From Gemmatimonadota bacterium (GTDB taxonomy: Bacteria; JAAXHH01), in the NCBI GenBank assembly GCA_026706345.1, contig JAPOYX010000169.1, positions 1-62,041 of the forward strand: a stretch of 62,041 bases of DNA, written 5' to 3'. Below the pieces are notes generated by a model. It saw only the letters and a program-made list of their open reading frames with translations, was not told the origin of the DNA and did not search any database. Within the stretch, counting starts at the first letter, position 1. Each line of letters opens with the position of its first letter. The position numbers and the translations under genes are program-made. Of the stretch, positions 17,892-38,100 are shown piece by piece.

Positions 17892-20675
17892 ATGCGTCTT
17901 TCGTGGAACGAGGTCCGTACACGCGCCGCCGCTTTCGCCGAAGAGTGGCGCGACGCGTCCTACGAGAAGGGCGAGACACAGTCATTTTACAACGACTTCT
18001 TCCAGGTTTTCGGAGTTCGACGACGAAACGTAGCTCGGTACGAAGAGCATGTGAAGAAGCTGAACAACAGCCAGGGCTTCATCGATCTGTTCTGGCCCGG
18101 GGTATTGATCGTCGAGCAGAAGAGCGCCGGCCGCGACCTCGAAAGTGCCTACGAGCAGGCCGGCGACTATTTTGACGCCCTGCCCGATCACGAAAAACCC
18201 CGCTACCTCCTGGTTAGCGACTTTCAGAATTTCGAACTACGAGACCTGGACGAGTCCCGAACCGACTCTTTCGAACTCAAGGACCTTTCTGCCCACGTGG
18301 AGTCATTCGGCTTCATCATGGGCGTGCAGCGCAAGACTTTTCGCGACCAGGATCCGGTCAACATCGAGGCCGCCGAACTGGTTGGAAAGCTGCACGATGC
18401 TCTTGATTCAGTCGGCTACCGGGGAGAAAATCTCGAACGTTTTCTTGTAAGAATCGTCTTTTGTCTCTTCGCAGATGACACCGGTATCTTCGACACGCGC
18501 GATATATTCAGTGACTTCATCGAAACACGCACGAGCGAGGACGGTTCCAACCTGGGCGCGTTGCTGGCCGAACTGTTCCAGGTGCTCGATACGCCGGAGG
18601 GCGAACGCATTTCGACGCGGGACGAAGACCTCGCGCGGTTCCCCTACATCAACGGCGCGTTATTTGACGGGCCATTGCGCATACCCGCCTTCGACGCGTC
18701 TATGCGGCGCCTGTTGCTGGAAGCCTGCAACTTCGACTGGTCGAATATCTCTCCAGCGATCTTTGGCGCATTGTTCCAATCGGTCATGGATCCCGTTGAA
18801 CGCAGGGCTTCAGGGGCGCACTACACTACCGAGAAGAACATCCTCAAGGTAATCGAACCGCTGTTCATGGACGACCTCCGCACGGAGTTCGAGCGGCTCA
18901 GGTCTCGCAAGGACAGCCGGCGCGTCAGCGAACTTCGAAGGTTTCAGAGAAAACTGGTGGACTTGCGGTTCTTCGACCCGGCATGCGGCTGCGGCAACTT
19001 CCTCATCATAGCCTACCGGGAATTGCGGCTGCTAGAGATGGACGTGATCAGGGAGATCAGGACAGCGACCGGCGCCAGCGGACAGGCAATGCTGGACGTA
19101 GAGTTGATTTCGCTCGTCAACGTGGATCAGTTCTACGGTATCGAGTTGGGTGAGTTCTCTGCTCGTATAGCCGAGACGGCATTGTGGATGATGGATCACA
19201 TCATGAACAACAGGCTCAGCCTGGAGTTCGGCCAGACCTATACCCGCATCCCGCTGAGCACTTCTCCTCATATCGTCCAGGGAGATGCGTTAGAAATAGA
19301 TTGGGCGACGATTTTACCGCCCGAAGAGTGTTCGTATGTACTTGGAAATCCTCCATTTGGTGGATTTGTGATGCGCGATGAGAAAAAGCAGTTACAGACT
19401 AAGGCTTTAATGACCAAGCTTGGCACCGGTGGTTCACGTCTTGACTATGTAGCCGCATGGTTCTTAAAAGCGGGTGCGTATTACAAAGGAAAGCAGGCAC
19501 GAATTGCTTTTGTCGCAACTAACTCTATCACTCAGGGCGAGCAGGTAGCTCAACTCTGGCCGGCGTTATTCGATCGGTACAATCTTGAAATAACATTTGG
19601 TCACAGGACCTTCCCTTGGGGTTCAGATGCCAAGGGGAAAGCTCATGTACATGTCGTAATCGTCGGCATGTCTGACCGTGAATCCACACCGCCTAGACGT
19701 CAGCTCTTCTCCTACGAGAATCCTGGTGATGAGCCCGAGTCAATCGAACCCAGCTACATTAGTCCGTATCTCTTGGATACTAGCCAACTCAATAACCATC
19801 ATCTCGTGGTCAAACGGCAACGAAACTCGATATCCGGTCTTCCCAAAATCGGAGTCGGCACAAAGCCCGTCGACGATGGGCACTACATTCTCAATAGAGA
19901 AGAACGAGAGGAATTCTTAGTGTGGGAGCCCCAAGCCGAAATGTTGCTCAGGCCCTTCATCGGTGGGCGAGAATATATCAATGGCGTTGAGCGTTGGCTG
20001 CTCCATGTAGATGAAGAGTCGCCCTCTGTTTTGCGGTCACTACCGAGCGTTATGAACCGAATCCGCGCTGTGAAGGAATTCAGGTTAAGGTATGCAGGGA
20101 AACTGGGTAACTCACTAGCTGAACGACCCACAAAGTACCATGTCGCCGTCGTTCCGACGACCGATTTTCTGGTCATACCGGAAGTAAGCTCCGAGCGACG
20201 GCAGTACACGCCTATAGGTTATTTGAAGCCGCCTGCTATTCCAAGCAATCAGCTACTGGTCGTTCAAGATGCGACGTTAACTCTTTTTGCCTTGTTAACC
20301 TCGGCCATGCATATGGCTTGGATGCGTCATGTCGGCGGAAGACTGAAAAGCGATTATCGCTATTCTAGTGGCTTAGTTTACAATTCTTTTCCTACACCGG
20401 TCGATTTCAGGGAAGAGAATGAAGAACTTTCTAAACTTGAGCCGTATGCCCAGGCCGTGCTTGATGCCCGTAATGCCCATCCTGGCGCGATAATGGCTGA
20501 CCTTTATGATCCAGATCTAATGCCCTCCGACCTGCGCCGTGCACATCAGGCACTTGACCGCGCTGTAGATCGGTTCTATCGTCCAAAACGTTTTGCCTCA
20601 GAACGAGAGCGGGTCGAGCATCTTTTTGTGCTTTATGAGAGGACGCGGATGCCGCTCGAATTGAGGAACTACTGA
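17892..20675 (+). CDS. Type IIL (MmeI-like) single-chain restriction endonuclease-methyltransferase
   Basis: 927 residues in MmeI order. An N-terminal PD-(D/E)XK nuclease has Asp65, nine residues, then Glu75-Gln-Lys77 (IVEQKSAG), the same D-x9-ExK spacing as MmeI. A helical spacer (about 160-300) follows, then the gamma-class N6-adenine methyltransferase with SAM motif DPACGCGNF (362-370) and catalytic NPPF (486-489), then a target-recognition region (about 640-830) and a C-terminal helical tail. One polypeptide recognises, hemimethylates and cuts about 20 bp away in this family; no separate methylase is needed. Codon use is less GC-rich than the flanking genes, especially in the recognition domain. 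Convergent with the signalling operon. Confidence 0.93.
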   Translation: MRLSWNEVRTRAAAFAEEWRDASYEKGETQSFYNDFFQVFGVRRRNVARYEEHVKKLNNSQGFIDLFWPGVLIVEQKSAGRDLESAYEQAGDYFDALPDHEKPRYLLVSDFQNFELRDLDESRTDSFELKDLSAHVESFGFIMGVQRKTFRDQDPVNIEAAELVGKLHDALDSVGYRGENLERFLVRIVFCLFADDTGIFDTRDIFSDFIETRTSEDGSNLGALLAELFQVLDTPEGERISTRDEDLARFPYINGALFDGPLRIPAFDASMRRLLLEACNFDWSNISPAIFGALFQSVMDPVERRASGAHYTTEKNILKVIEPLFMDDLRTEFERLRSRKDSRRVSELRRFQRKLVDLRFFDPACGCGNFLIIAYRELRLLEMDVIREIRTATGASGQAMLDVELISLVNVDQFYGIELGEFSARIAETALWMMDHIMNNRLSLEFGQTYTRIPLSTSPHIVQGDALEIDWATILPPEECSYVLGNPPFGGFVMRDEKKQLQTKALMTKLGTGGSRLDYVAAWFLKAGAYYKGKQARIAFVATNSITQGEQVAQLWPALFDRYNLEITFGHRTFPWGSDAKGKAHVHVVIVGMSDRESTPPRRQLFSYENPGDEPESIEPSYISPYLLDTSQLNNHHLVVKRQRNSISGLPKIGVGTKPVDDGHYILNREEREEFLVWEPQAEMLLRPFIGGREYINGVERWLLHVDEESPSVLRSLPSVMNRIRAVKEFRLRYAGKLGNSLAERPTKYHVAVVPTTDFLVIPEVSSERRQYTPIGYLKPPAIPSNQLLVVQDATLTLFALLTSAMHMAWMRHVGGRLKSDYRYSSGLVYNSFPTPVDFREENEELSKLEPYAQAVLDARNAHPGAIMADLYDPDLMPSDLRRAHQALDRAVDRFYRPKRFASERERVEHLFVLYERTRMPLELRNY

Positions 20676-20865: not shown

Positions 20866-22665
20866 CTACACTGGTCCTTGATCGGCATCTGAGCTTGCAG
20901 GTACCTCAGTGGAGTGCCCGAAATAATGATCGAAGGCGGTTCGTGCCTGATATTGGGTAAACTTCGTAAGCAACGCACCCGACCACGGTTGTCGAAGTCG
21001 CAACATCCGCTTTACGCCGTACTTTAAGATCTTGCCGGTTACGATTGGCCCGAACTTCAGAGAGGTGGTCGATCCCGGCAAGGCAAGTGAGGGTGTTTCT
21101 TCGTCGAGATCCTTATTTTTCAGTTCTTCATACCGATCCAGCGCCTTGTCATAGAAACTGCGTAACTTCTGGTAACGCTTTTCCCAAGGTTCAATCAGCA
21201 ACGCTGGACATTCCGCGTTCACATCTATCTCAGCTGAGCCTTCCTCGCATACCGCGCAAAGATCCAGTACGACAAGCGGTACTTGATAAACTCTCGCGAG
21301 ATTGGCGAACGCAGAGCTGCCAGTTTCTTCCTCGTAGAAAGGAAGTTCTTCCCAGTTTTCCCGTTTCTCGGTGCAGCCGAACACCAACTCCACCACAGCC
21401 GCCATACGTCCAAACTTTTTGTCCTCGTAGTTTCGCATTCCGTCCTTGCGGACCATCAGGTCACACGGTTGTGCAAGCAGGATGTAATACTTTTCATTCG
21501 TACTGAACCAAAAGACGTCACCGATATCTATCGGTGTGTGAAAACGGTTTAGTTCGTCGTCCGAGTCGTAAATCTCGAATCGTTGTATTCGCAACGATTC
21601 GTCTGAGTCGTTGTCGCCGTCAAGAGCTGTAGCGATTGCCTCGGGGGCGGCACTCAACCTTCGTGCAGCCGCAACCGAATCGGGCATGTCCTGATCCTGG
21701 AGCAAACGCGAACGCGCCTCTCGTTGCATAAGAATATGGAAAATCCGGAGCAGCGTTTCAGGTTCCCAAATTCCTTCTTTTCGCGAAGACGCGAACACCA
21801 TCCTGTCAAAATCCAAGACTGACAGAGACTCCATCGCCTTTTTTGCTTCGCTGAGAGAATCCTTAAAGATCGACCAAGCCTTGCTTTTCACACGCGCATA
21901 GCGGCCGCTCAAGGCCGTCAAACGCAACATGCCCAGAAACCCGTAGTAATTCGGCGGGTCTTGCAGCCGTCCCTTCGAGATAACAACGAATCGGTCGCGC
22001 TCAAGGCCGTGTTCCTCTGACAGGTTGACCCACGCTTCAAACTCGTCATTCAAAGGAACCGTGTGGCTAATCAGACCGACGTATCCAATGTTTGTGGACT
22101 GCGCCTCGTGTATCTGTTTCAAGCCCTCGTTCTCAGCCTCTGGCTCTTCCCGGCTAAAGTCTCGATCAAAAAGCACCAATGTGTTCTGGGCCTTCGCACC
22201 CTTGAGAAGGGTGGTCCCTTTCTCCCTCCACTCACTCAGGGAAAGCAGAACGAAGTCAAGTCCCGCAAGTCCACCCAGGATTTCCTCGAGCGAACCCGCC
22301 GCCTTGAAGTCATCGGCCGCCGTCTCATCCTGCCCGGTTTCGCCATCTGCTAAGGATGCAGACGACGCGGCATGCAACTTGCGGGCCTCCACTACCACAC
22401 GCCTCCGCTCCGTGTTATTCAGTTTCTCCCAAGTTTCTCTAACTTCATCAGTCCATACCGCATGCGGAGCGTCAAAGTAAATCTCTTCTAAATGAGGCAG
22501 CCGCGACGACTCTGCGGGCACCAATTCTGAACATATCCCCAACAACTCCTCGACGTTGGCCGCGTATTCGTCATCTATTACCACGACTCGAGATATCCCT
22601 ACGGTATCGAGAAGTTTCTTAGCATCCCTTCGGACTTTATTCAGCACCTCCGCTGCACTATTCAC
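20866..22665 (-). CDS. Divergent response-receiver domain protein with C-terminal effector of unknown function
   Basis: 599 residues from a GTG at 22665, chosen because GGGAG lies six bases upstream and the start then overlaps the kinase stop by eight bases. The N-terminal domain looks like a receiver: acidic pair in VVVIDDEY (Asp31-Asp32), a putative phosphoacceptor in LVLFDRDF (Asp167 or Asp169), a hydroxyl residue in GLISHT (Ser200/Thr202) and the lysine in FVVISKG (Lys231). About 100 residues are inserted between the acidic pair and the phosphoacceptor. The remainder (about 240-599) holds a conserved-looking IGDVFWF, then YYILLAQPCDLMVRKDG, of unknown role. It resembles the response receiver domain family seen in conflict loci. 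Probable partner of the upstream kinase. Confidence 0.72.
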   Translation of the reverse strand: MNSAAEVLNKVRRDAKKLLDTVGISRVVVIDDEYAANVEELLGICSELVPAESSRLPHLEEIYFDAPHAVWTDEVRETWEKLNNTERRRVVVEARKLHAASSASLADGETGQDETAADDFKAAGSLEEILGGLAGLDFVLLSLSEWREKGTTLLKGAKAQNTLVLFDRDFSREEPEAENEGLKQIHEAQSTNIGYVGLISHTVPLNDEFEAWVNLSEEHGLERDRFVVISKGRLQDPPNYYGFLGMLRLTALSGRYARVKSKAWSIFKDSLSEAKKAMESLSVLDFDRMVFASSRKEGIWEPETLLRIFHILMQREARSRLLQDQDMPDSVAAARRLSAAPEAIATALDGDNDSDESLRIQRFEIYDSDDELNRFHTPIDIGDVFWFSTNEKYYILLAQPCDLMVRKDGMRNYEDKKFGRMAAVVELVFGCTEKRENWEELPFYEEETGSSAFANLARVYQVPLVVLDLCAVCEEGSAEIDVNAECPALLIEPWEKRYQKLRSFYDKALDRYEELKNKDLDEETPSLALPGSTTSLKFGPIVTGKILKYGVKRMLRLRQPWSGALLTKFTQYQARTAFDHYFGHSTEVPASSDADQGPV

Positions 22666-25162
22666 CGGTTGCTCCCGACAGGTCGAGTTCGAATACATAC
22701 CTCCTGCCGCGTTCGTTGCGATCTGCCAGAAGCACAAGATCGCAGGACTCCGAGTCAAGAAGTTGGCGGCAGACATACAGACCCAATCCTCTACCTTCCC
22801 CGGTGCGCTTCATCGTTACAAAAGGCTCGAACAGAGAGTCCTCTACACTTTCGTCCACACCTGCACCATTGTCCGCTACCCGCACGTAGGGCTCGGCGAC
22901 GACGATCTTTATCTCACCCGTTTCTACCAAACCAGCACGAATCGCTTCCTTAAGCCAGTACTCCGCGTTTAATACCAAATTGTCAAACACCTGTGTTAAC
23001 TTGCCCTTGTTCATATAAACCGCGAATCCGTTAGATTGGGTTTGCACATCCAGCTTTATTACGTTCTGAGCCAGCCTCTCTTCGTAGAAACCTCCGAACT
23101 CGTTGAAGAAGGCGACTGTGTCGATTCGTTCCCTTCGTTCGCGCAGATAGCGCAAGGAAGGAGTAAGATGAGCGAGTTGCTTACGCATTGCGGCCACACT
23201 GGATCTAACTTCCTCGATAAACGCTATCATCAATGCCCTGCGGGCCCGTCCTTCCATCTCCCGTATCAATACTGAACTCTTTCTCGCGAGCCGATCTGCG
23301 ATGTTGTGTATCTCGTGGGATAGCGCCTCAGCAGTAAGACCCAGGCTAATGCTCTCGTACATGGCGGACAATTGTTCGTTTAAGGCCTCCCAGCGTCGAT
23401 CCAGAACATCTTTCATCGCCTTAAGTTCCGTAGCTTCATCCAGAGCCGAAGAGACCTCGTCTAACAACTCCTCCTCTCTCATCACTTCGTTCGACACAGT
23501 CGAAAGTTCTGCTTCGAGGCTCTCAAGAGCACTCGACTCGGGAGAACCTGCTATGAGTCTCTTGTCCAATTCGTTACGTACCGCACCTAGCATCTTGGCA
23601 GCTCCTGCCGTAGCTTTTGTTAGTGATCCGGTTCTTTGCTGCACCTTAGTTTTTTCCAACGACAGTTTTCCCGCGATGCGGTCGATACGCTGAGTGACCG
23701 CCGAGTGTGGTTCTTCTGGTGTTACCCCTGCTTGCTGGTCACGATGTGCGTTCAGGAAGCTAAGTACACCGCGCCTGAAATAGTTTTGAGCGTCACCCGC
23801 GAACCTGATAAACTCCGTCAACAGTGCAAAAAAGTTTTCGTAGTGAGGGGTCACCAGAAACCCCTCCCGACTCGTAGTCTCCTTGAGGTCCGGGTTATCC
23901 CGCGCACTAATCGCAACGAATCCCAACACGTTTCCAGGTCGCAGGCCGTAATAGGACGTAGCTTCCGTCTGTTGCTTCCCCAAGCCCAGCCAATCTTCTC
24001 CGACGCGGATACCGAACCCATCACGGTATACTCGAATACCGGCGAGGTCCTTAACCAGCTCCCGGTACTCGGATTGCCGGCTCACCGCGTCATCCTTGAA
24101 CTCGGAGCTTTCAAGCGACACAGCATCAACCTCCCCCCGGAAAGGACCTGGACTTACTGCCGACTTCGTGACTCGCCTGATACGGTCCAGATCATCCAGC
24201 GAGCGCTGCGTTCTAAACTCGACGAACCATCCCTCGCGTTCCGAGCGAACAAAGTGCCTTGGTCGGCCCTTGCCTGTCCTACTGGTAAAAAACTCAAATA
24301 GTGCCTCGCCGCTGTCCACTAAGCAAAGTGACTTGAAGAGTTGCTCGTTATCCTTACCACTTGGCTGGAAGAACTTCAGCCGCGCAGTGCCCGATATATC
24401 TAAGACTTGTCCGTCGAACTTGAATACGTACTTCAGCAGTGCTGCTTCGCGCACTTTCTTCGCGATTTCCGCAAGCTCCAGAGTCTTTCCGTCGACTTCC
24501 AAGTGCACGTGGAAATCGTCCGCTTCTTCGAATGGGGAGAGCATTCCCGATAGTTTTCGCTGAAGGTCCAATACATGCTCACTTGCCTGCCACATTTCGC
24601 GTTCACGGAGACCCGACAGAATGAGCTTTGTCCCGTGCTGCTTGCCGCACACGTTGTTTCGCTCGAACTGGACTGGCACCTCGCCTAGGTTGGTCGTGTC
24701 GCGGAAGTCCTTCCAAGAGAAGGCGATGTACTGCTCGATATTCGGTTGTTTGCGAGACTGAGTGATGATCTCGACGTTATGCGCCAGCCTTTGACTACCC
24801 AACCGCCCTAGACCTTTGTCTCCTATGGGTGTTCGTCCTCGAAGAGTCTCTCGCCCTGCGTCCTTCTGCTCTCGTTTTGGAGAGTTCGCGATGGTGAGCC
24901 AGCCACGCCGAATTGTTTCCTCGTCCATACCATTGCCGTTGTCCTCGACGAGAATCGACCCTGCGGCGTCAGAATACCCCCGTCCCAATTTGTTCTCAGC
25001 GCGAGTATCGATAGTTACGTTCACCCAAGTGGCGTCAGCGTCGTAGCTGTTCTTCACAAGCTCCACGAGCGCCTGAACGACGTCCGTAATGAGTTCCTCG
25101 CCAAGTCGAAAGACTACTGCCGCGTTGATGTCGAATCGAGGTTGAAAGCGTTCTTCTGCCAA
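22658..25162 (-). CDS. Dual-GHKL ATPase: MORC/Hsp90-like N-terminal module plus C-terminal histidine kinase module
   Basis: 834 residues with two separate GHKL ATP-binding modules. The first (about 10-250) has ALVELVKNSYDAD (Glu34, Asn38), DNGNGM (74-79) and GDKGLGRLG (114-122), as in Hsp90/MutL/MORC ATPases. Residues 250-490 resemble a transducer-type domain. A coiled coil follows (about 500-600). The C-terminal module is a histidine kinase: H-box LSHEIHN with His616, N-box FDNLVLNAEYW (Asn728, Asn732), G1 ADNGAG (764-768), F-box FEPFVTM and G2 GRGLGL (790-795). No membrane segment, so the stimulus is intracellular. The gene starts nine bases after the methyltransferase stop and overlaps the receiver gene. 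MORC-like ATPases are known beside restriction-modification genes. Confidence 0.9.
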   Translation of the reverse strand: MAEERFQPRFDINAAVVFRLGEELITDVVQALVELVKNSYDADATWVNVTIDTRAENKLGRGYSDAAGSILVEDNGNGMDEETIRRGWLTIANSPKREQKDAGRETLRGRTPIGDKGLGRLGSQRLAHNVEIITQSRKQPNIEQYIAFSWKDFRDTTNLGEVPVQFERNNVCGKQHGTKLILSGLREREMWQASEHVLDLQRKLSGMLSPFEEADDFHVHLEVDGKTLELAEIAKKVREAALLKYVFKFDGQVLDISGTARLKFFQPSGKDNEQLFKSLCLVDSGEALFEFFTSRTGKGRPRHFVRSEREGWFVEFRTQRSLDDLDRIRRVTKSAVSPGPFRGEVDAVSLESSEFKDDAVSRQSEYRELVKDLAGIRVYRDGFGIRVGEDWLGLGKQQTEATSYYGLRPGNVLGFVAISARDNPDLKETTSREGFLVTPHYENFFALLTEFIRFAGDAQNYFRRGVLSFLNAHRDQQAGVTPEEPHSAVTQRIDRIAGKLSLEKTKVQQRTGSLTKATAGAAKMLGAVRNELDKRLIAGSPESSALESLEAELSTVSNEVMREEELLDEVSSALDEATELKAMKDVLDRRWEALNEQLSAMYESISLGLTAEALSHEIHNIADRLARKSSVLIREMEGRARRALMIAFIEEVRSSVAAMRKQLAHLTPSLRYLRERRERIDTVAFFNEFGGFYEERLAQNVIKLDVQTQSNGFAVYMNKGKLTQVFDNLVLNAEYWLKEAIRAGLVETGEIKIVVAEPYVRVADNGAGVDESVEDSLFEPFVTMKRTGEGRGLGLYVCRQLLDSESCDLVLLADRNERGRRYVFELDLSGATGE

Positions 25163-25171
25163 GGTCGTACC

Positions 25172-26617
25172 CTATGCCTTCCTAAACACGAGGATCGCCT
25201 CCGCACGCATCGTGTTCGCGATGGAGTTCCTCGTCGCCATCCTCTTACTCGGGATTTTCCGCTCCAATTTCGTCACTGGACGACACCCTTTGGCCACAAG
25301 CAATTCCTCAAGTATGGCGTCGGTCGGAATCGGCTCACCGCCGACCCGTCTATTTCCGATTGTCCAGATCAAATACGCTCCAGATCTGAGCACGGCGACA
25401 GCAGACCGAAGAGCACGGTCCAGGTCACGACAAAAAGCAGCAACTCGCTTCCCTCTGTCTGGTGGAAACGCTTCAAGTCTGCTCAACGTGTGCTTTAGAC
25501 TCGGGCTGATTTCAAGCAAATGCTTGGCCTCTTGAACTGCCTTCCTCCGCAACCCACCCAGACTCTGTGTGTCGATCTCATGGGTAGTACGAAGGCAGCA
25601 GGCGTGGGCACCCTCGTCGATATCCTCCAAATCTATCCACTGAAGTGGGAGGTAGGAGTACTGACCATATGGCACAGTCGTCGTATTGTCTCCATAAGGC
25701 GGCGATGTGATTAACAGGTCTTGTAGACGCGCGCCGGGCCTCAACTTCGTCGAATCACACAATCGAATCTCCAGATCGCCCCGATAATACCCGTTGGTGG
25801 TCAAGCGTCTGGATTCCCGTAAAACTTCCGCCTCTTCGTTAAGGCGCGTAGTCATGTCGGATACGACCGTAGCGAAGGTTTCTAGCGGATTGACATTTCG
25901 AGACTCTATATCTACTTTATTCCGGACATGTAACTTGAATGTGGAGGTGCGCGAGTTGCTCGTCAGCCTGACCGTCTCCGCAAGACCGGTCCAAAGCACG
26001 CGGCGACACCAACCGTGATCTACGTAGCGTATCGCTCGACGAATGCGAGAAAGTTGGTTAATGGCGACCGCGCAGAACCACTTATTCAAACCTGGGAACT
26101 CCGCCTCAATCTTACTGCCTCGATCCGCACTCGCGCGTTCGACAACCTCCTTGGCGATGTTCTCAAGTCTATGGACGTGGAATGGCCCTGCCTTCGTCCG
26201 GCACAACAGCACCGCAAGAGGGTTGATGTCTTGTCCCTCATAATTCAACCCTAGGCGCATACTTTCAACTAGCGTGGTTCCAGAACCGGCGAACGGGTCA
26301 AACACTCGCGTCACTCGCCTATCGACCCCCGTCACGACCTTGATAAGCACAGCCTGCATTCCAGGTACCATCATCGCGGGGTACTGCGTCAAGCCCTGGC
26401 TTTGTCCCCGTGCCGCCCGCCCCCTGAATGCCCAGTAGTCCTCGTCTGCATGGGACAATCGGTGGAGTTCGTTGGCAATTCTGTCGTCGGTCGAAGCACT
26501 CAAGTCGGTGTAATCATCTTCTTCCAGTCCGTCCACCTCACCGAGCACCGGTTCGCGCTGACTCGTTTGACCCACCCTCGTAGCCGTACAGTCTTTGGTC
26601 ATCTCAAGGATTGACAT
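25172..26617 (-). CDS. Site-specific DNA methyltransferase (N4-cytosine/N6-adenine type)
   Basis: 481 residues from the ATG at 26617, with AGGGG ten bases upstream; a GTG 33 bases earlier is in frame. The SAM motif is FDPFAGSGTTL (about 106-116) and the catalytic motif is TSPPYG (304-309); SPPY is typical of amino-methyltransferases, often N4-cytosine. About 190 residues lie between the two motifs and are probably the target-recognition region. Motif I precedes motif IV. It is the first gene of a tight operon with the dual-GHKL kinase and receiver protein. No nuclease is encoded in this operon, which is unusual for a restriction locus. Confidence 0.9.
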   Translation of the reverse strand: MSILEMTKDCTATRVGQTSQREPVLGEVDGLEEDDYTDLSASTDDRIANELHRLSHADEDYWAFRGRAARGQSQGLTQYPAMMVPGMQAVLIKVVTGVDRRVTRVFDPFAGSGTTLVESMRLGLNYEGQDINPLAVLLCRTKAGPFHVHRLENIAKEVVERASADRGSKIEAEFPGLNKWFCAVAINQLSRIRRAIRYVDHGWCRRVLWTGLAETVRLTSNSRTSTFKLHVRNKVDIESRNVNPLETFATVVSDMTTRLNEEAEVLRESRRLTTNGYYRGDLEIRLCDSTKLRPGARLQDLLITSPPYGDNTTTVPYGQYSYLPLQWIDLEDIDEGAHACCLRTTHEIDTQSLGGLRRKAVQEAKHLLEISPSLKHTLSRLEAFPPDRGKRVAAFCRDLDRALRSAVAVLRSGAYLIWTIGNRRVGGEPIPTDAILEELLVAKGCRPVTKLERKIPSKRMATRNSIANTMRAEAILVFRKA

Positions 26618-27190
26618 CGGTTTCAAACCCCTATCATTCCTGTCCGGCACGCCGTTGGCAATTATCGTAGAGGGAAGTCGTTGCTGACGCTATGTAAGCA
26701 TATCTCTGTCGGGTAGTCATGTATCCGCACTTTATCATCAGGATTTAACCTTAGAAGGCTGCGGACGTTACTGAACGGTATTTCAAGTTCAGGGTCTGGG
26801 TCCACAACCTAAAATCCCCTTTCATAAACCGAGGACCAATTTTAACAGTCGAATATCGACCGGATTCCTCTACTCAAAAATACGGTTTACGAGATGTACA
26901 ACAATTGTTTTTCTGACGATTTTTATTAATCTGGCCCAATATATGGTAACTTGACCGCTATTTCATACGCATACGTAAATATCGAAATTACAATATGATA
27001 TATCAGTAATCTTCATCCATTCTGCTTTACGAATTCACCATTTTGACCTTGTGTAAACTCATTCGATTTTTGGAGGAGATTAAACATTATTTACGTGTAT
27101 ATTCACAACATTATTGACTTGTGATTCTACATCATTATATACTTGTACATCCACGTCTATCAAACCAACAAGCTTACGCGGAAGTCCAGC
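26618..27190. other. AT-rich 570-bp divergent intergenic region of the accessory island
   Basis: This gap separates the methyltransferase operon (minus) from the Fic gene (plus). Composition is markedly more AT-rich than the chromosome around it, especially 26850-27170, and it must hold the promoters of both units. Aside from three 24-bp iterons at its right end I see no coding potential or RNA gene. Confidence 0.7.
27085..27156 (+). repeat. Three tandem 24-bp iterons upstream of the wHTH-Fic gene
   Basis: Units start at 27085, 27109 and 27133, each opening with CATTAT and sharing AC(G/T)TGT eight bases in. Pairwise identity is 16-18 of 24. The array ends 34 bases before the start of a gene whose protein has an N-terminal winged helix, so it is a good candidate for its own operator. 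Exact 24-bp phasing over three copies is unlikely by chance even in AT-rich sequence. Confidence 0.65.
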
Positions 27191-28759
27191 ATGGCCAAAC
27201 CCAACGAAAAACTCGCCGCGTCGCTGATACGACTCGAAAACCTCCAGAAAGGAGGAAGACGGGTTTTTCGCTCCATCGAACTTACGCGCGTCCACCGCGA
27301 ACGCCTGCTTCGAAACGGCTACCTGCAGCAGGTCATGAAGGGCTGGCTGATCTCGTCCAGCCCCAATGCCCATCCGGGTGACACGACTTCGTGGTTTGCT
27401 TCATTCTGGGCATTCTGCGTTTCCTACTGCACGGCGCGGTTCGGCGAAGCCTGGCATCTTGCCCCCGAGCTGTCCCTGTTGCTTCATGCTGGAAAAACAG
27501 TTATCCCTCGACAGGTTGTCATCTATGCGCCCAAAGGCGCCAACAATACAGTCCAACTACCATTCGGTACGTCGCTCTACAATCTCAAGCAAGAGGACAC
27601 GCGGGCCGAAGAGGACGTAACGACGCGGGACGGTCTGAGGATCCTTGTACCCGAAGCTGCCCTCATCAAGGTCCCTAAAGCGTTCTTTGTCCGCTACCCG
27701 GTTGAAGCCCGAATCGCACTTTCCGGCGTACGCGATGCGGCCGACGTACTGGGCCGCCTTCTCGACGGCGGCCATTCAGCCGTTGCCGGTCGGCTTGCCG
27801 GGGCCTTCCGCCGGATCGGCCTGGCAGCAATAGCCGACGAGATTCTCAAAGTTATGAAAAGCGCCGGTTACGATGTGCGCGAGTCCGACCCATTTGAGCC
27901 AGCGCAGGCATTCAGTGCGTTAAAAGGGACCAAAGAGCCGATTGCCAGGCGACTGCAATCCTTGTGGGAGACTTTTCGGGAGCCGGTAATTGCGGCGTTC
28001 CCGAAGTCTCCTGAACCACCTTCGAACCCAAAAGCCTATCTGGCTTTTGTCGATGGCATCTACTGCGACGACGCTTACCATTCGCTATCGATTGAGGGGT
28101 ACCGCGTGACACCGAGCCTGATTGAACGGGTGCGCTCGGGCAACTGGGATCCAGATGACAATGAAGCTGACCGGAGAAGCCAGGATGCGCTTGCCGCGCG
28201 CGGTTACTGGCAGGCCTTTCAACTGGTTCGAGAGGCGGTCGGTGAAGTGATCGCCGATGCCAATCCAGGCGACTTGGTCCGTAACACTCACCGGGACTGG
28301 TATCGCGGGTTGTTCCAGCCTTTCGTTGCCGCTGGGCTGTTCTCGAGTTCGGTTCTTTCCGGCTATCGCAACGAAGCCGTATTTCTACGAGGTTCACGCC
28401 ATGTACCGCCACGTGACGAGGCGGTCAGCGACGCCATGCCGGCCTTGTTCGGCTTGCTTGAGGAGGAAACTGTGCCCTCAGTACGCGCCGTGCTGGGACA
28501 CTGGCTGTTTGGCTACATCCATCCCTATCCTGACGGCAACGGGCGTATGGCGCGGTTTGTAATGAACGTCTTGTTGGCCTCGGGCGGTTACCCGTGGACG
28601 GTCATTCGCGTCCAGGATCGCACCGCCTATCTTGCCGCGCTCGAAAGCGCGAGTACTGATCAGGATATCAAGCCATTTGCGCGGTTTGTGGCGGAGCAGG
28701 TCACGCGGTCCAGAGGAGCAGATGGGGTAGTTCGGCACAAGTCTGGCTCGAAATACTAA
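27191..28759 (+). CDS. AbiEi-like winged-helix/Fic domain fusion protein
   Basis: 522 residues from the ATG at 27191; GGAAG is six bases upstream and the frame before it covers the iterons. Residues 1-200 resemble AbiEi-type antitoxin proteins: a winged helix (RRVFRSIELTRVHRERLLRNGYLQQV) followed by the AbiEi-like C-terminal fold. Residues about 300-510 are a Fic domain with the complete HPYPDGNGRMAR motif (His444), the AMP-transferase active site. An inhibitory helix motif SLSIEG ([S/T]xxxE[G/N], about 298-303) lies just before it, as in class II self-inhibited Fic proteins. The protein may therefore combine DNA-binding regulator, toxin and self-inhibitor in one chain. Role in phage defence or cell regulation is inferred. 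Confidence 0.88.
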   Translation: MAKPNEKLAASLIRLENLQKGGRRVFRSIELTRVHRERLLRNGYLQQVMKGWLISSSPNAHPGDTTSWFASFWAFCVSYCTARFGEAWHLAPELSLLLHAGKTVIPRQVVIYAPKGANNTVQLPFGTSLYNLKQEDTRAEEDVTTRDGLRILVPEAALIKVPKAFFVRYPVEARIALSGVRDAADVLGRLLDGGHSAVAGRLAGAFRRIGLAAIADEILKVMKSAGYDVRESDPFEPAQAFSALKGTKEPIARRLQSLWETFREPVIAAFPKSPEPPSNPKAYLAFVDGIYCDDAYHSLSIEGYRVTPSLIERVRSGNWDPDDNEADRRSQDALAARGYWQAFQLVREAVGEVIADANPGDLVRNTHRDWYRGLFQPFVAAGLFSSSVLSGYRNEAVFLRGSRHVPPRDEAVSDAMPALFGLLEEETVPSVRAVLGHWLFGYIHPYPDGNGRMARFVMNVLLASGGYPWTVIRVQDRTAYLAALESASTDQDIKPFARFVAEQVTRSRGADGVVRHKSGSKY

Positions 28760-30554: not shown

Positions 30555-32945
30555 TCACTCACTGCGCAGCACTTCCGCGGGATTGGTAAGCGCGGCCCTG
30601 ATCACATGGTATCCGATCGTCATCATCGTGATGATCAGGGCTGCCCCGCCGGACGCGAAAAAGATACCCCATCCGAATTCCTCGCGGTAGGCGAAGTTCT
30701 CCAGCCAGCGCCCCATGATCAGCCAGGCCGACGGCCAGGCCACGATGTTGGCCACGAGCACCAGGCCGACGAATTCGGCGGACAGCATGGCGAGCAGACG
30801 GCGCACGGTAGCGCCCAGCGCCTTGCGGATGCCGATCTCCCGAGTGCGCCGTTCGACCGTGAATGAAACCAGCGCGACGAGACCCAGGCAGGTCAGGAAA
30901 ACCGCCACAAGGGCAAACACGCCGAAGAAGTAGCCGATACGCATTTCATTCCGGTACAGACGGTCGATGTCTTCGTCGAGAAACGTATAGGCAAAGGGGA
31001 AATCGGGGAAGAAATCCGACCATGCCTCTTCGATGTATTCCAGGGTGCTCCTGATATCTTCCGGTTGGATCCGGACCACCAGGTGCAGGCCGGTGCCGTG
31101 AAAGAGTACGAGCGGCTCGATGGGCAGGTGAAGCGTCCTGAAGTGGAAGTCCCGGATTACGCCGACCACCGTGTGCGTGTATCCACTGGCGAAACGGATC
31201 TGTTGCCCGATGGCCTCTTTGGGTGTTTCCCAGCCCAGGACACGCAGCGCCGCCTCGTTGATCACGATGTTTTCCCATTCCGTGTCGTTTCTGAATGCCC
31301 CGCGATGGGACCGGCCTGCGAGCAATTCCATGCCCATCGTCTCTACGAAGTCCACGGAGGCCTGGAAACCCTGGACGTCATGCCTTACGTGGTCCGGGTC
31401 CTCGACGCGCTGCATCGTGCCCGACGACGACCGGCCGATGGTGCCGAACAGTCCGGGCAGGGTTATGGCCTGGCTCACGCCGTCCACACCGGGGTACTGC
31501 AGCAGGACGTCTTTCCACGGCTGGTAGTTGACCGCCACTTGCTCGACCGTCGGAATTACGATCACCTGGTCCTTCTCGAAGCCCAGCTTCTTGTGCTGAA
31601 CGAAGTCCAACTGACTGAACAGGAGGCCGGTGCCGATGATCAGCGCGGTGGAAATGGCGAACTGAAAAACGACCAGGATCTTCCTGGACCACGCACCGCC
31701 CGGCAGGTAAGGCCGACCTTCCTTGAGCCCAGGAATGGCCCGCACGGAGGAAAACACGAGGGCCGGGTATCCGCCCGAAAGGAGTCCGATGAGGATCGCG
31801 ACGGCCGGCAGGGCGAGCCACCACAGGGGGTGCAGCGCATGGGCCGAGGCTATCGGCTGGCCCAGCAGGGCGTCGAAATACGGGCCAATGAAATAGATGG
31901 CCAGGAGGGCGATTAACAGGGCCAGGATGGTCATCAGGACCGATTCCCCCAGGCACTGCCGGATCAACTGTCCCCGGGACGCCCCGAGTATCTTGCGCAT
32001 GGCGATCTCGCGGGCACGGTGCACGAACTGTGCCGTGGAGAGGTTTACATAATTCACCGAGGCGATGACCAGGATGAACAGCCCGATGGCGATCAGGATG
32101 TACACGTAGGTGACATCGGTGTTGGCGCCGTGCTCGTGCTCGAGATGGGAGTAAAGATGGATGTCGGTGAGGGGTTGCAGCGTCAATTCGTAACGGGCGA
32201 GGTTTTCCAGGTAACTCGCGTCGACGTGTCTCTCCACGAAACCGGGCAGTTTCCGCTGGGTCTCCTCCGGCGGATGGCCCTCCGGCAACACGATGTAATT
32301 GTAGAAAAGGGTGGTGTACCACACTTCGGGATACCCGCTCCAGCCGAATTTGTCGTAACCGGATGCCAGCGAAATCAGCAGATCGGCTTGGAAATGGGCG
32401 TTTTCCGGGAAGTTTTCAATGACGCCGGTGACGGTCAGCAGCATGTAGCCGTTGTCGGCGATGATCGTCTTCCCCATGGGATCTTCATCGCCGAAGTACT
32501 TCCGGGCCGTATCCTCGGTGATCACCACGGTGTAAGGCGCTTCGAGGGCGTGATCCGGATCGCCCTGGACGAAGGGCAGGGTAAAGACGTCGAACATCCC
32601 GCTGTTGACCCAGTACACGTTCTTTTCATAGTAAACCCGGTCTTCATACTTCATGATCCAGGTGCCTATCGTGGGAAGCATCCGGGCGTAGTGCTGGATT
32701 TCGGGGAAGTCGGCCTGGAGCATCGGAGACAGTTCACGGGGAGACCGAGCGCTGTCGTTGAGCGTTACCCGGTAAATGCGGTCGGCCTTTTCGTGGTAGC
32801 GGTCGTAGCTAAGTTCGTAGCGCACGTACAGGAAGATCAGGATGGCGCATACCAGGCCGACGGCCAAGCCGAGGACGTTTATGGCCGTGTAACCCCTGTA
32901 CCGGCTCATGTGCCGCAGGGATATGTTGATCTGGTTCCCTGGCAT
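30555..32945 (-). CDS. FtsX/MacB-like ABC transporter permease (paralog 1)
   Basis: 796 residues from the second of two adjacent ATGs at 32945; AAAGGA is six bases upstream, and the in-frame extension to 33125 lies inside the NADH dehydrogenase gene. The layout is TM1 (about 22-42), a MacB-type extracytoplasmic domain (the LSYDRYHEKADRIYRV motif right after TM1), three FtsX-type TMs (about 285-420), a further TM, a second extracytoplasmic domain and three C-terminal TMs ending TNPAEVLRSE. Such duplicated permeases act with a separate ATPase to drive periplasmic work, often peptide or lipoprotein handling. No ATPase gene lies nearby. Confidence 0.9.
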   Translation of the reverse strand: MPGNQINISLRHMSRYRGYTAINVLGLAVGLVCAILIFLYVRYELSYDRYHEKADRIYRVTLNDSARSPRELSPMLQADFPEIQHYARMLPTIGTWIMKYEDRVYYEKNVYWVNSGMFDVFTLPFVQGDPDHALEAPYTVVITEDTARKYFGDEDPMGKTIIADNGYMLLTVTGVIENFPENAHFQADLLISLASGYDKFGWSGYPEVWYTTLFYNYIVLPEGHPPEETQRKLPGFVERHVDASYLENLARYELTLQPLTDIHLYSHLEHEHGANTDVTYVYILIAIGLFILVIASVNYVNLSTAQFVHRAREIAMRKILGASRGQLIRQCLGESVLMTILALLIALLAIYFIGPYFDALLGQPIASAHALHPLWWLALPAVAILIGLLSGGYPALVFSSVRAIPGLKEGRPYLPGGAWSRKILVVFQFAISTALIIGTGLLFSQLDFVQHKKLGFEKDQVIVIPTVEQVAVNYQPWKDVLLQYPGVDGVSQAITLPGLFGTIGRSSSGTMQRVEDPDHVRHDVQGFQASVDFVETMGMELLAGRSHRGAFRNDTEWENIVINEAALRVLGWETPKEAIGQQIRFASGYTHTVVGVIRDFHFRTLHLPIEPLVLFHGTGLHLVVRIQPEDIRSTLEYIEEAWSDFFPDFPFAYTFLDEDIDRLYRNEMRIGYFFGVFALVAVFLTCLGLVALVSFTVERRTREIGIRKALGATVRRLLAMLSAEFVGLVLVANIVAWPSAWLIMGRWLENFAYREEFGWGIFFASGGAALIITMMTIGYHVIRAALTNPAEVLRSE

Positions 32946-34273
32946 CATTCGTCCTTTGCAGATCTTGTCTCGTGATTGAGCCCGCCGAATCGCCACTCGC
33001 GTTCGACGATAAGGCGCGCGCCGCGCCGGAACGTCACATAGGACCAGGCCCAGTGCAGCAAGACGAGCAATCGGTTCTTGAAACCCACGAGGAAGTAGAC
33101 GTGGACGACCAGCCAGGTGACCCACGCGAACCAGCCGGAGAACCTGAGCCTGCCGATTTCCGCCACGGCGCGGCTGCGGCCGATGGTCGCCATCTGGCCC
33201 CGGTCGACGAACCGGAAGGTCTCGCGCGGTTTACCGGCCAGCTCGCGGCAGATCAGCCTCGCCACGTAACGTCCCTGCTGGATCGCCACGGGCGCCGTAC
33301 CGGGAAGTGGGCTGCCGGTCTGGTGGGTAAAGCAGGCCTGGTCGCCCGCAACGAACACGGTCGGGTGTCCCGGGATGCTCAGGTCTTCGTTGACGATAAC
33401 ACGTCCCCCGCGGTCCGTCTCGATGCCGTCCTGCTCATGCTGCCCATCCAGTTCAACGCCACGTGTGGGCGCGGCAACCGCAACTTCAACGCCCCGTACG
33501 CCCGCCGCCCAGAGCACCGTCGAGGACCGGATGCGTTCCGGGCCCGCTTGCACGCCGTGCTCGTCGATATCCGTCGCCAGGGTGTTCGGCCAGACCTGCA
33601 CGCCGAGTTTTTCCAGGTCCCGCGCCGCCCGCGCCGCCTGCTGCTCGGAGAACATCGAGAGAATGCGCGGACCCGACTCGATCAGGATGACTCGCGTGAG
33701 GCGGGTGTCGATGTTTCGGAAATCCCTGGCGAGCGTGAATCGGCTCATCTCCCCAATGGCGCCCGCCAACTCGACGCCGGTCGGGCCTCCGCCGATGACT
33801 ACGAAGGTCAATAGCTGCCGGCGTGTCTCGGGATCGTCGGTCCGTTCCGCCGCTTCGAAGGCGCTCAGCAGCCGGCGACGGACCTCGGTGGCCTGCGGAA
33901 TCGTCTTCAAGCTCGGCGCGTGCTCCTCCCAGTCCCCGTGGCCGAAATAGCTCGGGATCGACCCGCAGCAGAGCAGCAGGTAATCATATTCGAGCTTTCC
34001 GAAATCTGCCGATACGGTCCCCGCCTGCAGGTCGACGCCTTCCACCGATCCCTGCAGCACCGAGATGTTTCGGCAGCGTGCAAGCACGCTTCGTATGGGC
34101 GTGGCGATATCGGCGGGCGACAGGCCGGCCATGGCCACCTGGTAGAGCAGCGGCTGGAACAGGTGGTAGTTCTGCCGGTCGACCAGCGTTACGCGGACGT
34201 CTGCCCGGCCGCCGAGTTTCTTGGCTGCGTTCAGGCCGGCGAAACCGCCTCCCACGATTACGACGTGTTTCAT
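32945..34273 (-). CDS. ndh: Type II NADH dehydrogenase (NDH-2), FAD-dependent
   Basis: 442 residues. The FAD dinucleotide fold is IVGGGFAGLNAAKKL at 6-20, the quinone-site region is LFQPLLYQVAMAGLSPADIA, and the NADH fold is VVIGGGPTGVELAGAIGEM. The FAD C-terminal motif is VFVAGDQA. Residues about 385-420 (WFAWVTWLVVHVYFLVGFKN) form the amphipathic membrane-binding helices. NDH-2 passes electrons from NADH to quinone without pumping protons. Its stop overlaps the following permease start, so it is translationally linked to that gene, an odd pairing. Confidence 0.92.
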   Translation of the reverse strand: MKHVVIVGGGFAGLNAAKKLGGRADVRVTLVDRQNYHLFQPLLYQVAMAGLSPADIATPIRSVLARCRNISVLQGSVEGVDLQAGTVSADFGKLEYDYLLLCCGSIPSYFGHGDWEEHAPSLKTIPQATEVRRRLLSAFEAAERTDDPETRRQLLTFVVIGGGPTGVELAGAIGEMSRFTLARDFRNIDTRLTRVILIESGPRILSMFSEQQAARAARDLEKLGVQVWPNTLATDIDEHGVQAGPERIRSSTVLWAAGVRGVEVAVAAPTRGVELDGQHEQDGIETDRGGRVIVNEDLSIPGHPTVFVAGDQACFTHQTGSPLPGTAPVAIQQGRYVARLICRELAGKPRETFRFVDRGQMATIGRSRAVAEIGRLRFSGWFAWVTWLVVHVYFLVGFKNRLLVLLHWAWSYVTFRRGARLIVEREWRFGGLNHETRSAKDE

Positions 34274-34382
34274 CGGGTTTACCGTCCTGTTACGTATGGC
34301 CTGCGCCCGCGAACATTCTGGATGGCCGCGGCGGCCGTATCACCAGGCACCGGTCACGCCTTCTGAACCGTATGGCGTTACT

Positions 34383-36758
34383 TCACTCATTTCGCAACAC
34401 CTTTGCCGGATTGGTCAAAGCGGTCCTGACCACGTGGTAACTGATGGTGATCAGCGTAATCAGCAGGGCGGCGGCACCAGAGAGAAAGAAGACCTCCCAG
34501 CCGACCTCCGTACGGTAGGCAAAGGACTCGAGCCAGCGTTGCATGATCAGCCAGGCCGCCGGCCACGCAAAGACATTTGCGATGAGCACGAATCCTACGA
34601 ATTCTCCCGACAGCAACACCAATACCTGTCGTATGGAAGCACCCAGCGCTTTGCGTACGCCGATCTCCCTGGTTCTCCGTTCCACGGTGAAGGAAACCAA
34701 CGCGAACAGGCCCAGGCAGGCAAGGAAAACTGCCACCAGGGCAAATACGCCGAATACGTAACCGATCCGTACTTCAGACCTGTACAGGCGTTCGATGTTT
34801 TCGTCGAGAAACGTATACGCAATTGGGAAACCCGGGAAAAAACTCGACCACTGGCTTTCAATGTAATCCAGCGTATTCTCCGTGTCGTCAGGGTGGAGGC
34901 GGACGGCCAGATGAAGGCCGCCGCCCAGGAACAGCACGATCGGCTCTATCTTCAAATGCATCGATCGAAAATGGAAATCCCTGACGACACCGATCACCGT
35001 TTTAGTCGAGCCGTTACCGAAACGGACCTCCTGGCCAATGGCCGCCTCCGGCGTGTCCCAGCCCAATACACGCTGCGCCGTTTCGTTGATCACGACGTTC
35101 ACTTCCTCGGATTTCCTGACCAGCGCGCTGCTATGCGCCCGGCCGGCAAGCACAACCATGCCCAGGGTCTCCACGAAATCCAGCCCGACGTTCAGGCCCT
35201 GCACATCATGCCTGGCATTGTCCGGATCATCGACCCGCTGTATCGTACCAGTCGATACCTGTCCGATGTTCCCTTCGAGCCCCGGAAGGGACCTGCTGTG
35301 GGTCACCGCTGCCACGCCGGTATGTTGCAGCAAGGCTTCTTTCCAGGGCAGGAAGTCTTCTAATACGTCACCTACGGTTGGTATCACGATCACCTGTTCT
35401 TTGTCGAAACCCAGTTGCTTGCTTTGGAGGTATTCCATCTGATCGAACAGGATGCCCGTGCTGATGATCATCGCGATGGATATCGTAAACTGGATGACCA
35501 CCAGGATCTTCCGCGACAGTCCTCCGGCCGCTTCGAGCTGCCGGCCTCCCTTCACGCCCTGTACCGGCTGCATGGCGGAAAGCAGCAACGCCGGGTAGCT
35601 TCCGGACAGCAAACCCACAAGCAGCGCGCCGACTGGAAGGACGAGCCACCAGATACCAGCACTCGTGAATTCCGCCGTTACCGGCTTCCCCGCGAAACCG
35701 TCGAAATACGGTGAAATCATAAAAAGAGCCGCCAGGGCGATCATCAGCGCCATGGCGGTTACCAGGACCGACTCTCCCAGGAACTGCCGAATCAACTGGG
35801 AGCGATACGCGCCAAACACTTTGCGCAAGCCCACTTCTCTGGTCCGGCCGGCAAACCGGGCGGTTGACAGGTTGATGAAATTGATACAGGCGACGACCAG
35901 GATGAAGAGAGCTATGGCCGAAAGGATGTAGATATAGGCGATGTCGCTGTTGGCGCCAGTCTCGTGCTCGAGATTGGAATGGAGATGGATGTCGGGCACC
36001 GGTTGCAGGATGAGTTCGAAGCGGCCGCCCCGTTCCCTCAGCCCTTCCCCGATGTGCCTGTTGACGAAGTCGGGAAGCTGCTCCTCGATCGCGGCCCGGG
36101 AATGGCCTTCAGTCATCACGATGTAGGTGTAGAAATTGATCCACGACCAGTAACGCAGATCACTCGCCGACGACGAGGACAGCGAAATGAAGAAGTCGGC
36201 CTGAAAGTGGGTGTTTTCCGGCGTGTTTTCCATGACACCGGTAACGGTCAGCATCATAAAACCGTTATCTGCGTTGATCGTCTTGCCCATCGGATCTGCT
36301 TCACCGAAGTATTTTCGAGCCGTATCTTCGCTGATCACAACAGAGTAGGGCGCCTCCAGGGCCGTTCGGGAATCGCCGCGGATCAGAGGAAAGGTAAAGA
36401 TGCCGAACAGGGCGTTGTCCGCCCAGTAGACCCGGTTTTCATAGTAGATCTTCTCTTCGTGTTTCATAATCCACGTACCGGTCGTCGGGAGCAGCCGGAC
36501 AAAACTCAGGATCTCGGGGAAATCCTCCTGAAGCGCCGGACCCACGGGCGGAGGCGTCCGGGCATCGTTGTTGACCGCTACTCTGTAAATGCGATCCGCC
36601 TTCTCATGATAGCGGTCGTAACTGAGTTCGAAGCGGACATAGAGAAATATCAGCATGGCGCAGACCATCCCCACGGTCAGCCCGAGGACGTTGATCGCCG
36701 TGTATCCTTTCTGCCTTGTCCAATGGCGAATCGCTATGGTTACGTAGTTCTTGAGCAT
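34383..36758 (-). CDS. FtsX/MacB-like ABC transporter permease (paralog 2)
   Basis: 791 residues with the same layout as paralog 1: MLKNYVTIAIRHW, TM1 (GYTAINVLGLTVGMVCAMLI), the FELSYDRYHEKADRIYRV element, paired extracytoplasmic domains and seven further TMs, ending TNPAKVLRNE. The residues shared with paralogs 1 and 3 are spread over the whole length, so they arose by tandem duplication or share substrate class. No strong ribosome site is seen. It is 109 bases from the NADH dehydrogenase start. Confidence 0.9.
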   Translation of the reverse strand: MLKNYVTIAIRHWTRQKGYTAINVLGLTVGMVCAMLIFLYVRFELSYDRYHEKADRIYRVAVNNDARTPPPVGPALQEDFPEILSFVRLLPTTGTWIMKHEEKIYYENRVYWADNALFGIFTFPLIRGDSRTALEAPYSVVISEDTARKYFGEADPMGKTINADNGFMMLTVTGVMENTPENTHFQADFFISLSSSSASDLRYWSWINFYTYIVMTEGHSRAAIEEQLPDFVNRHIGEGLRERGGRFELILQPVPDIHLHSNLEHETGANSDIAYIYILSAIALFILVVACINFINLSTARFAGRTREVGLRKVFGAYRSQLIRQFLGESVLVTAMALMIALAALFMISPYFDGFAGKPVTAEFTSAGIWWLVLPVGALLVGLLSGSYPALLLSAMQPVQGVKGGRQLEAAGGLSRKILVVIQFTISIAMIISTGILFDQMEYLQSKQLGFDKEQVIVIPTVGDVLEDFLPWKEALLQHTGVAAVTHSRSLPGLEGNIGQVSTGTIQRVDDPDNARHDVQGLNVGLDFVETLGMVVLAGRAHSSALVRKSEEVNVVINETAQRVLGWDTPEAAIGQEVRFGNGSTKTVIGVVRDFHFRSMHLKIEPIVLFLGGGLHLAVRLHPDDTENTLDYIESQWSSFFPGFPIAYTFLDENIERLYRSEVRIGYVFGVFALVAVFLACLGLFALVSFTVERRTREIGVRKALGASIRQVLVLLSGEFVGFVLIANVFAWPAAWLIMQRWLESFAYRTEVGWEVFFLSGAAALLITLITISYHVVRTALTNPAKVLRNE

Positions 36759-38039: not shown

Positions 38040-38100
38040 CAGCCCGTCCCCGCGCCCGGATTCAGCACGCAAAATCCGGCGGCTTCTTCCAACCTCTTTC

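Follow-up and report, generated by a model that had tools for sequence, protein, structure and literature searches.

The window (the whole 62,041-nucleotide stretch of DNA analysed here, from a Gemmatimonadota bacterium) carries, at the right edge of a low-GC stretch, a gene that encodes an AbiEi-like module and a Fic domain in one chain, preceded by three tandem repeats (Table 1). As an earlier, sequence-only reading of this DNA had said, the gene is directed away from a minus-strand kinase/methyltransferase operon. That reading also placed it inside the island to which the operon belongs, which our comparison with genomes G003, G001 and G011 does not bear out. The restriction-modification/kinase block spans ~17.6-27.0 kb by this comparison; G003 has the whole set (block and Fic gene), G001 has an MmeI-like gene and the Fic gene and lacks the kinase/methyltransferase genes, and in G011, of the same genus, the array and Fic gene occupy the same place, straight after a Gfo/Idh gene, with no block present. 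Block and Fic gene therefore come and go separately. Compared with G001 and G011, left-side homology starts at ~27082, where the repeats start, so that the conserved unit consists of array and gene. The window contains no tRNA or Rfam elements.

Table 1. Positions of the fusion gene, its parts, the upstream repeats and the orphan arrays of related genomes
Feature	Position	Strand	Remarks
AbiEi-like/Fic fusion gene	27191..28759	+	522 aa, ATG start
AbiEi-like winged helix, residues 1-60	27191..27370	+	AF2 models, Foldseek
AbiEi-like C-terminal subdomain, residues 61-235	27371..27895	+	AF2 model, Foldseek
Loop between strands, residues 113-119	27527..27547	+	residues 117 and 119 covary with repeat base 13
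SLSIEG inhibitory motif, residues 298-303	28082..28099	+	contains Glu302; alignment
Fic catalytic motif HPYPDGNGRMAR, residues 444-455	28520..28555	+	conserved in 54-member alignment
Putative operator repeat unit 1, TAAACATTATTTACGTGTATATTC	27081..27104	+	24 bp; weakest of the three
Putative operator repeat unit 2, ACAACATTATTGACTTGTGATTCT	27105..27128	+	contains -35 hexamer
Putative operator repeat unit 3, ACATCATTATATACTTGTACATCC	27129..27152	+	contains -10 hexamer
Promoter-like site TTGACT-18-TATACT	27114..27143	+	hexamers 24 nt apart, start to start
Orphan 24-bp x3 arrays	~1346-1504 of each locus		L229 (G008), L231 (G009), L232 (G004), L233 (G006)

Several other features of the window were seen in passing. 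The MmeI-like Type IIG restriction-modification gene (17892-20675) is 92% identical to its G003 counterpart in one part, with the C-terminal part ~70% identical or unalignable, a divergence that suggests exchange of the target recognition region. The apparent minus-strand operon at 20866-26650 encodes a DNA methyltransferase, a protein of 834 aa that has two HATPase domains (its N-terminus BbrUII-like, its C-terminus histidine-kinase-like) and a 636-aa protein without a family match; it is a candidate restriction or defence operon. Three paralogous stretches (30555-33125, 34382-36707 and 38095-40478) share ~70% DNA identity, the first of them encoding an FtsX/MacB-like ABC permease.

The Fic half of the fusion protein is readily recognised. 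Pfam Fic (PF02661) covers residues 365-462 (E=7e-12), and among solved structures human FICD is the closest relative (phmmer E=8e-18); its inhibitory TVAIEG pairs in the phmmer alignment with SLSIEG, upstream of the Fic motif. The catalytic motif, HPYPDGNGRMAR, which begins at H444, satisfies the general HxFx(D/E)GN(G/K)RxxR with Tyr replacing Phe. Residues S298, L299, S300, I301, E302, H444, P445, D448-R452 and R455 are invariant in an alignment of 54 members, so that both the intact Fic motif and the SLSIEG inhibitory motif of the sequence-only reading stand. Alignment to FICD would put SLSIEG near the ATP site of the Fic domain and, judged by its sequence, the protein has the class II Fic layout. 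A subset of Bacteroidota members (e.g. L030, L044, L055, L063) reads SLSIE[R/K]Y, retaining the Glu with the next Gly changed to Arg or Lys. The VbhA antitoxin is a class I inhibitory-helix protein; its Pfam model gives weak, sub-threshold matches in 16/54 members and, in the one member checked by position, the match spans 292-312, over the SLSIEG motif. An AlphaFold2 model of the full chain, made with the 54 relatives as alignment (pLDDT 90.7, pTM 0.87), retrieved FICD (E=2e-10) and the AbiEi structure 6y8q (E=4e-4) in Foldseek, as well as CdFic, SoFic and CbFic2. In this model the last Fic helix (494-514) is followed by a short disordered tail; there is no C-terminal winged-helix domain after Fic, the putative DNA module being N-terminal instead.

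That N-terminal module is recognised by fold. The AlphaFold2 model of residues 1-240 (pLDDT 94.7) matched three PDB chains at E<=0.001 in Foldseek, all of the AbiEi family: Streptococcus agalactiae AbiEi (6y8q, two chains, E=4e-5) and Mycobacterium tuberculosis Rv2827c (1zel, E=2e-4). Weaker matches, at E=0.01 and above, were nucleotidyltransferases, in line with the NTase-like core reported for AbiEi C-terminal domains (CTDs) (PMC7319586). Residues 1-240 of this protein have no Pfam match; the AbiEi_4 model found 2/54 members at E=0.011, at or below noise, and not the window protein, and a sequence profile of the module retrieved nothing relevant from the PDB. The AbiEi-like fold proposed from sequence for residues 1-200 was open to contradiction by a structural model, and the model bears it out.

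The sequence-only reading had suggested a search for the same fusion in other genomes, and it proves to be a widespread family. By tblastn, 194 plasmid records match, 74 of them with 80% or more of the chain aligned, and most carry the annotation ‘Fic family protein’; in GTDB contigs the search gave 479 confirmed relatives (E<=1e-3). The best 80 of the 479 are 45-72% identical and align over almost all of the chain; their hosts belong to several proteobacterial classes, Bacteroidota, Acidobacteriota, Desulfobacterota, Myxococcota, Gemmatimonadota, Actinomycetota and other groups. Within the window's genus the fusion gene is variable, being present in 5/12 genomes. When residues 1-235 were used as query, the strong matches listed were essentially only genes of the AbiEi-like/Fic fusion, so that a link to Fic seems characteristic of this AbiEi-like subfamily. 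We found no description of the fusion or of its repeats in the open-access PMC literature, and the family, although widespread, is apparently unstudied. A Variovorax plasmid (L011:2625-4148) encodes a second Fic-family chain whose N-terminus looks AbiEi-like by eye; it is ~21% identical to the window protein and lacks the 24-bp array.

No neighbour or partner gene is conserved across 88 neighbourhoods, the commonest cluster being a generic signalling protein in 5/88, which agrees with the earlier expectation of a toxin without a partner gene. Nor is there an AbiEii/DUF1814 toxin partner in the window, or one that recurs in those neighbourhoods. Type IV toxin-antitoxin systems are defined by a separate, non-interacting toxin and antitoxin; here there is a single gene. 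The AbiEi-like part might yet be an antitoxin against AbiEii-type toxins encoded elsewhere, making the chain a hybrid of two toxin-antitoxin systems, and both its fold and the finding that the AbiEi CTD alone gives antitoxicity (PMC3985639) speak for this; but with no AbiEii-like gene recurring nearby and so generic a commonest neighbour, we give it the slimmest of chances. The module looks more like a DNA reader than like an antitoxin. An assignment to defence was set aside, the PADLOC matches being to generic Fic models. On two conjugative plasmids, of Agrobacterium (L209) and Sinorhizobium (L210), the family gene is flanked by traH and by an HTH gene adjoining traM, a position that hints at a possible link to conjugation control.

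Alignment of orthologs brought out what the module might read, a tandem array of three direct repeats of 24 bp that occupies 27081-27152. The -35 (TTGACT, 27114-27119) and -10 (TATACT, 27138-27143) hexamers lie at equal phase within units 2 and 3, and the TTGACT/TATACT pair recurs at equal spacing upstream of nine other family genes, three belonging to the same genus. A scan allowing periods of 12-40 bp, with arrays called at z>=5, found them in 77/93 family upstream regions, all with a period of 23-25 and 71 with exactly 24. Downstream controls gave 4/88 at z>=5 and 0/88 at period 23-25; regions upstream of other ORFs in the same loci gave 29/401, two of them at period 24. Since the starts of genes in the AbiEi control loci had been called only approximately, these loci were scanned whole: arrays of period 23-25 at z>=6 occurred in 0/13 loci with stand-alone AbiEi and 0/23 with other Fic genes, and in 25/51 newly fetched family loci. 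The 75 best arrays have 3-7 units and end a median of 20 bp 5′ of the start codon, each unit combining a fairly constant part (ACRRCA, A at 9) with a core (12-17) whose sequence depends on the lineage. An inverted-repeat operator was set aside as the direct 24-bp period is plain. The window's own genome has no further tandem arrays of the unit, and outside matches are single and at control level, which makes self-regulation, and not a regulon, the probable role. A strong promoter-like site on the minus strand (27134-27163, TTGATA-18-TATAAT, 11/12) extends into the array and might drive the divergent operon, which is ~480 bp away.

The strongest evidence that the fusion protein binds these repeats, with its CTD adding specificity, comes from covariation between protein residues and repeat bases. 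When mutual information was computed for all 522 residues against the 24 unit positions, using 75 genes, the pair of residue 119 and base 13 came first, 117 with base 13 tied second with 441 and base 16, and 131 with base 14 came seventh. In the combined set of 108 genes, 119-base 13 (z 11.9) and 117-base 13 (z 9.8) were first and second of 12,528 pairs. In the AlphaFold2 model the loop 113-119 contains residues 117 and 119, and the strand 128-133 contains residue 131; all three are within the AbiEi-like CTD, and their states are chemically sensible (R117 with G, N119 with A, D131 with C). Winged-helix residues were accordingly rejected as main determinants of specificity, since the highest-ranking pairs fall in the CTD and not in the recognition helix; pairs such as 441-base 16 were discarded because both states seem to be shared within a single clade. 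A part for the CTD in specificity fits AbiEi, in which the full-length protein including the CTD is required for DNA binding and repression (PMC3985639, PMC7319586).

Five rules were written from the training genes before most test genes had been fetched; seven plasmid genes fetched earlier were left out of training. The 28 test genes are each <85% identical to any training gene, not all being mutually independent, and their repeat units were located with the core masked. Out of sample, R117 predicted G13 in 4/4 (against 1/24 of the others), N119 predicted A13 in 8/8 (5/20) and D131 predicted C14 in 15/15 (4/13). The rule K119 to C13 was weak (2/3 versus 2/25, p=0.045), and M132 to A14 failed (3/6 versus 6/22). 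Among 30 sister pairs on a Fic-domain tree, those of the same 117/119 class had the same base 13 in 18/18 cases and those of different class a different base in 9/12 (p=1.5e-5). Base 14 was not significant in the sister-pair test (p=0.5), so it rests on the out-of-sample rule.

These results bear on whether the reader of the repeats is another protein, or the repeats are mere promoter sequence, with the AbiEi-like domain doing something else. The coincidence of the repeats with the -35 and -10 hexamers of the window gene, and their variation by lineage, would suit that explanation, but base 13 follows residues 117/119 both in sister pairs and out of sample, most family arrays lack a TTGAC-like/TATAAT-like pair at this spacing, and upstream regions of other genes lack such arrays (the two of 401 at period 24 noted above); we consider it unlikely. 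The promoter repression of the sequence-only reading is instead supported by the candidate operator array and by covariation that holds out of sample.

Four genomes of the same genus without the Fic gene (G004, G006, G008, G009) retain a three-unit 24-bp array at the same site, between the 3′ ends of convergent genes. These orphan arrays score 47-52, compared with 46-65 in gene-bearing genomes and below 0 for random windows. Judged by flank distances, the gene was probably lost about three times separately; the nearest gene-bearing relative of G009 is G011 (92-94%). Recent gene loss without constraint would explain the orphan arrays, the alternative being that leftover arrays are protective. 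They also invite the idea that the array serves chiefly for recombination or as a place where the gene lands, and not as an operator, as does the presence of the gene on plasmids and its variability within the genus; but the promoter register of the window array, the position of arrays just 5′ of the start codon (the 20-bp median given above), the residue/base covariation and the lack of any recombinase recurring beside the family gene make this very improbable.

Thus the Fic/AbiEi-like make-up, the repeat array and the covariation of residues and bases together look like an autorepressing class II Fic protein. We propose a single-gene AMP-transferase whose AbiEi-like module binds the repeats of its own promoter and whose Fic domain is restrained by Glu302, and put the probability of this at a little over three in four. 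The module (winged helix plus C-terminal subdomain) would bind the 24-bp units probably as one monomer per repeat, head to tail, with the winged helix contacting the conserved ACAACA part while the C-terminal subdomain contacts the variable core; the bound protein would cover both the -35 and -10 hexamers and so keep its own expression low. The Fic domain, restrained by its own glutamate in SLSIEG, is predicted to perform AMP transfer and may serve growth arrest, a toxin role being plausible by likeness to other Fic proteins (PMC9755527, PMC7479194). Against autorepression stand, besides the failed and weak rules and the base-14 result given above, the direct orientation of the repeats, those of AbiEi and Rv2827c being inverted, and the four genomes with array and without gene, which plain autoregulation does not need. 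A different proposal, which we think unlikely, is that the fusion is silent while docked on the repeats (or deAMPylating, an option modelled on DNA-bound CbFic2 as reported), so that loss of the array frees active enzyme and the array is the antidote; array copies left in gene-losing genomes would then protect against the enzyme.

If autorepression is right, a widespread Fic family gains a clear, testable control mode, and the covariation can be read as a table of residues and bases for the AbiEi-like fold; we found no published map of base-specific contacts for this fold in the open-access PMC literature. Each family member would also come with a natural, defined DNA ligand, making the question of DNA switching of class II Fic enzymes testable.

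Human FICD/HYPE is the best match of the Fic half in sequence and fold, including the inhibitory helix and catalytic motif, and differs at its N-terminus, where it has TPR repeats, and in being an ER protein. For residues 1-240 the resemblance is instead to AbiEi and Rv2827c (COG5340), type IV antitoxins of the same fold that autoregulate through 23-bp sites (PMC3985639, PMC7319586), as compared with the 24-bp repeats here; they are encoded by separate genes beside an AbiEii nucleotidyltransferase toxin, whereas here the module shares one chain with a Fic enzyme. AbiEi operators start TGTTGC (PMC3985639) and our constant part reads TGTTGT on the other strand, a short likeness that is suggestive only. 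CbFic2 of Coxiella burnetii (PDB 8cil), in which DNA binding switches AMPylation to deAMPylation (PMC10628234), and Shewanella SoFic are likewise class II Fic proteins that combine a winged-helix domain with an inhibitory [S/T]xxxEG motif upstream; the domain is C-terminal in them and comes without an AbiEi-like CTD, and a promoter repeat array is not described for them in the literature examined. CccR of Yersinia pseudotuberculosis (PDB 7xux) is a Fic chain that represses its own promoter (PMC9755527); its HTH domain is C-terminal and of another kind, and it is secreted by a T6SS, in contrast to the N-terminal AbiEi-like module and tandem-repeat array of our family, but it likewise joins a Fic and a DNA-binding domain in one chain with the own-promoter repression that we propose here.
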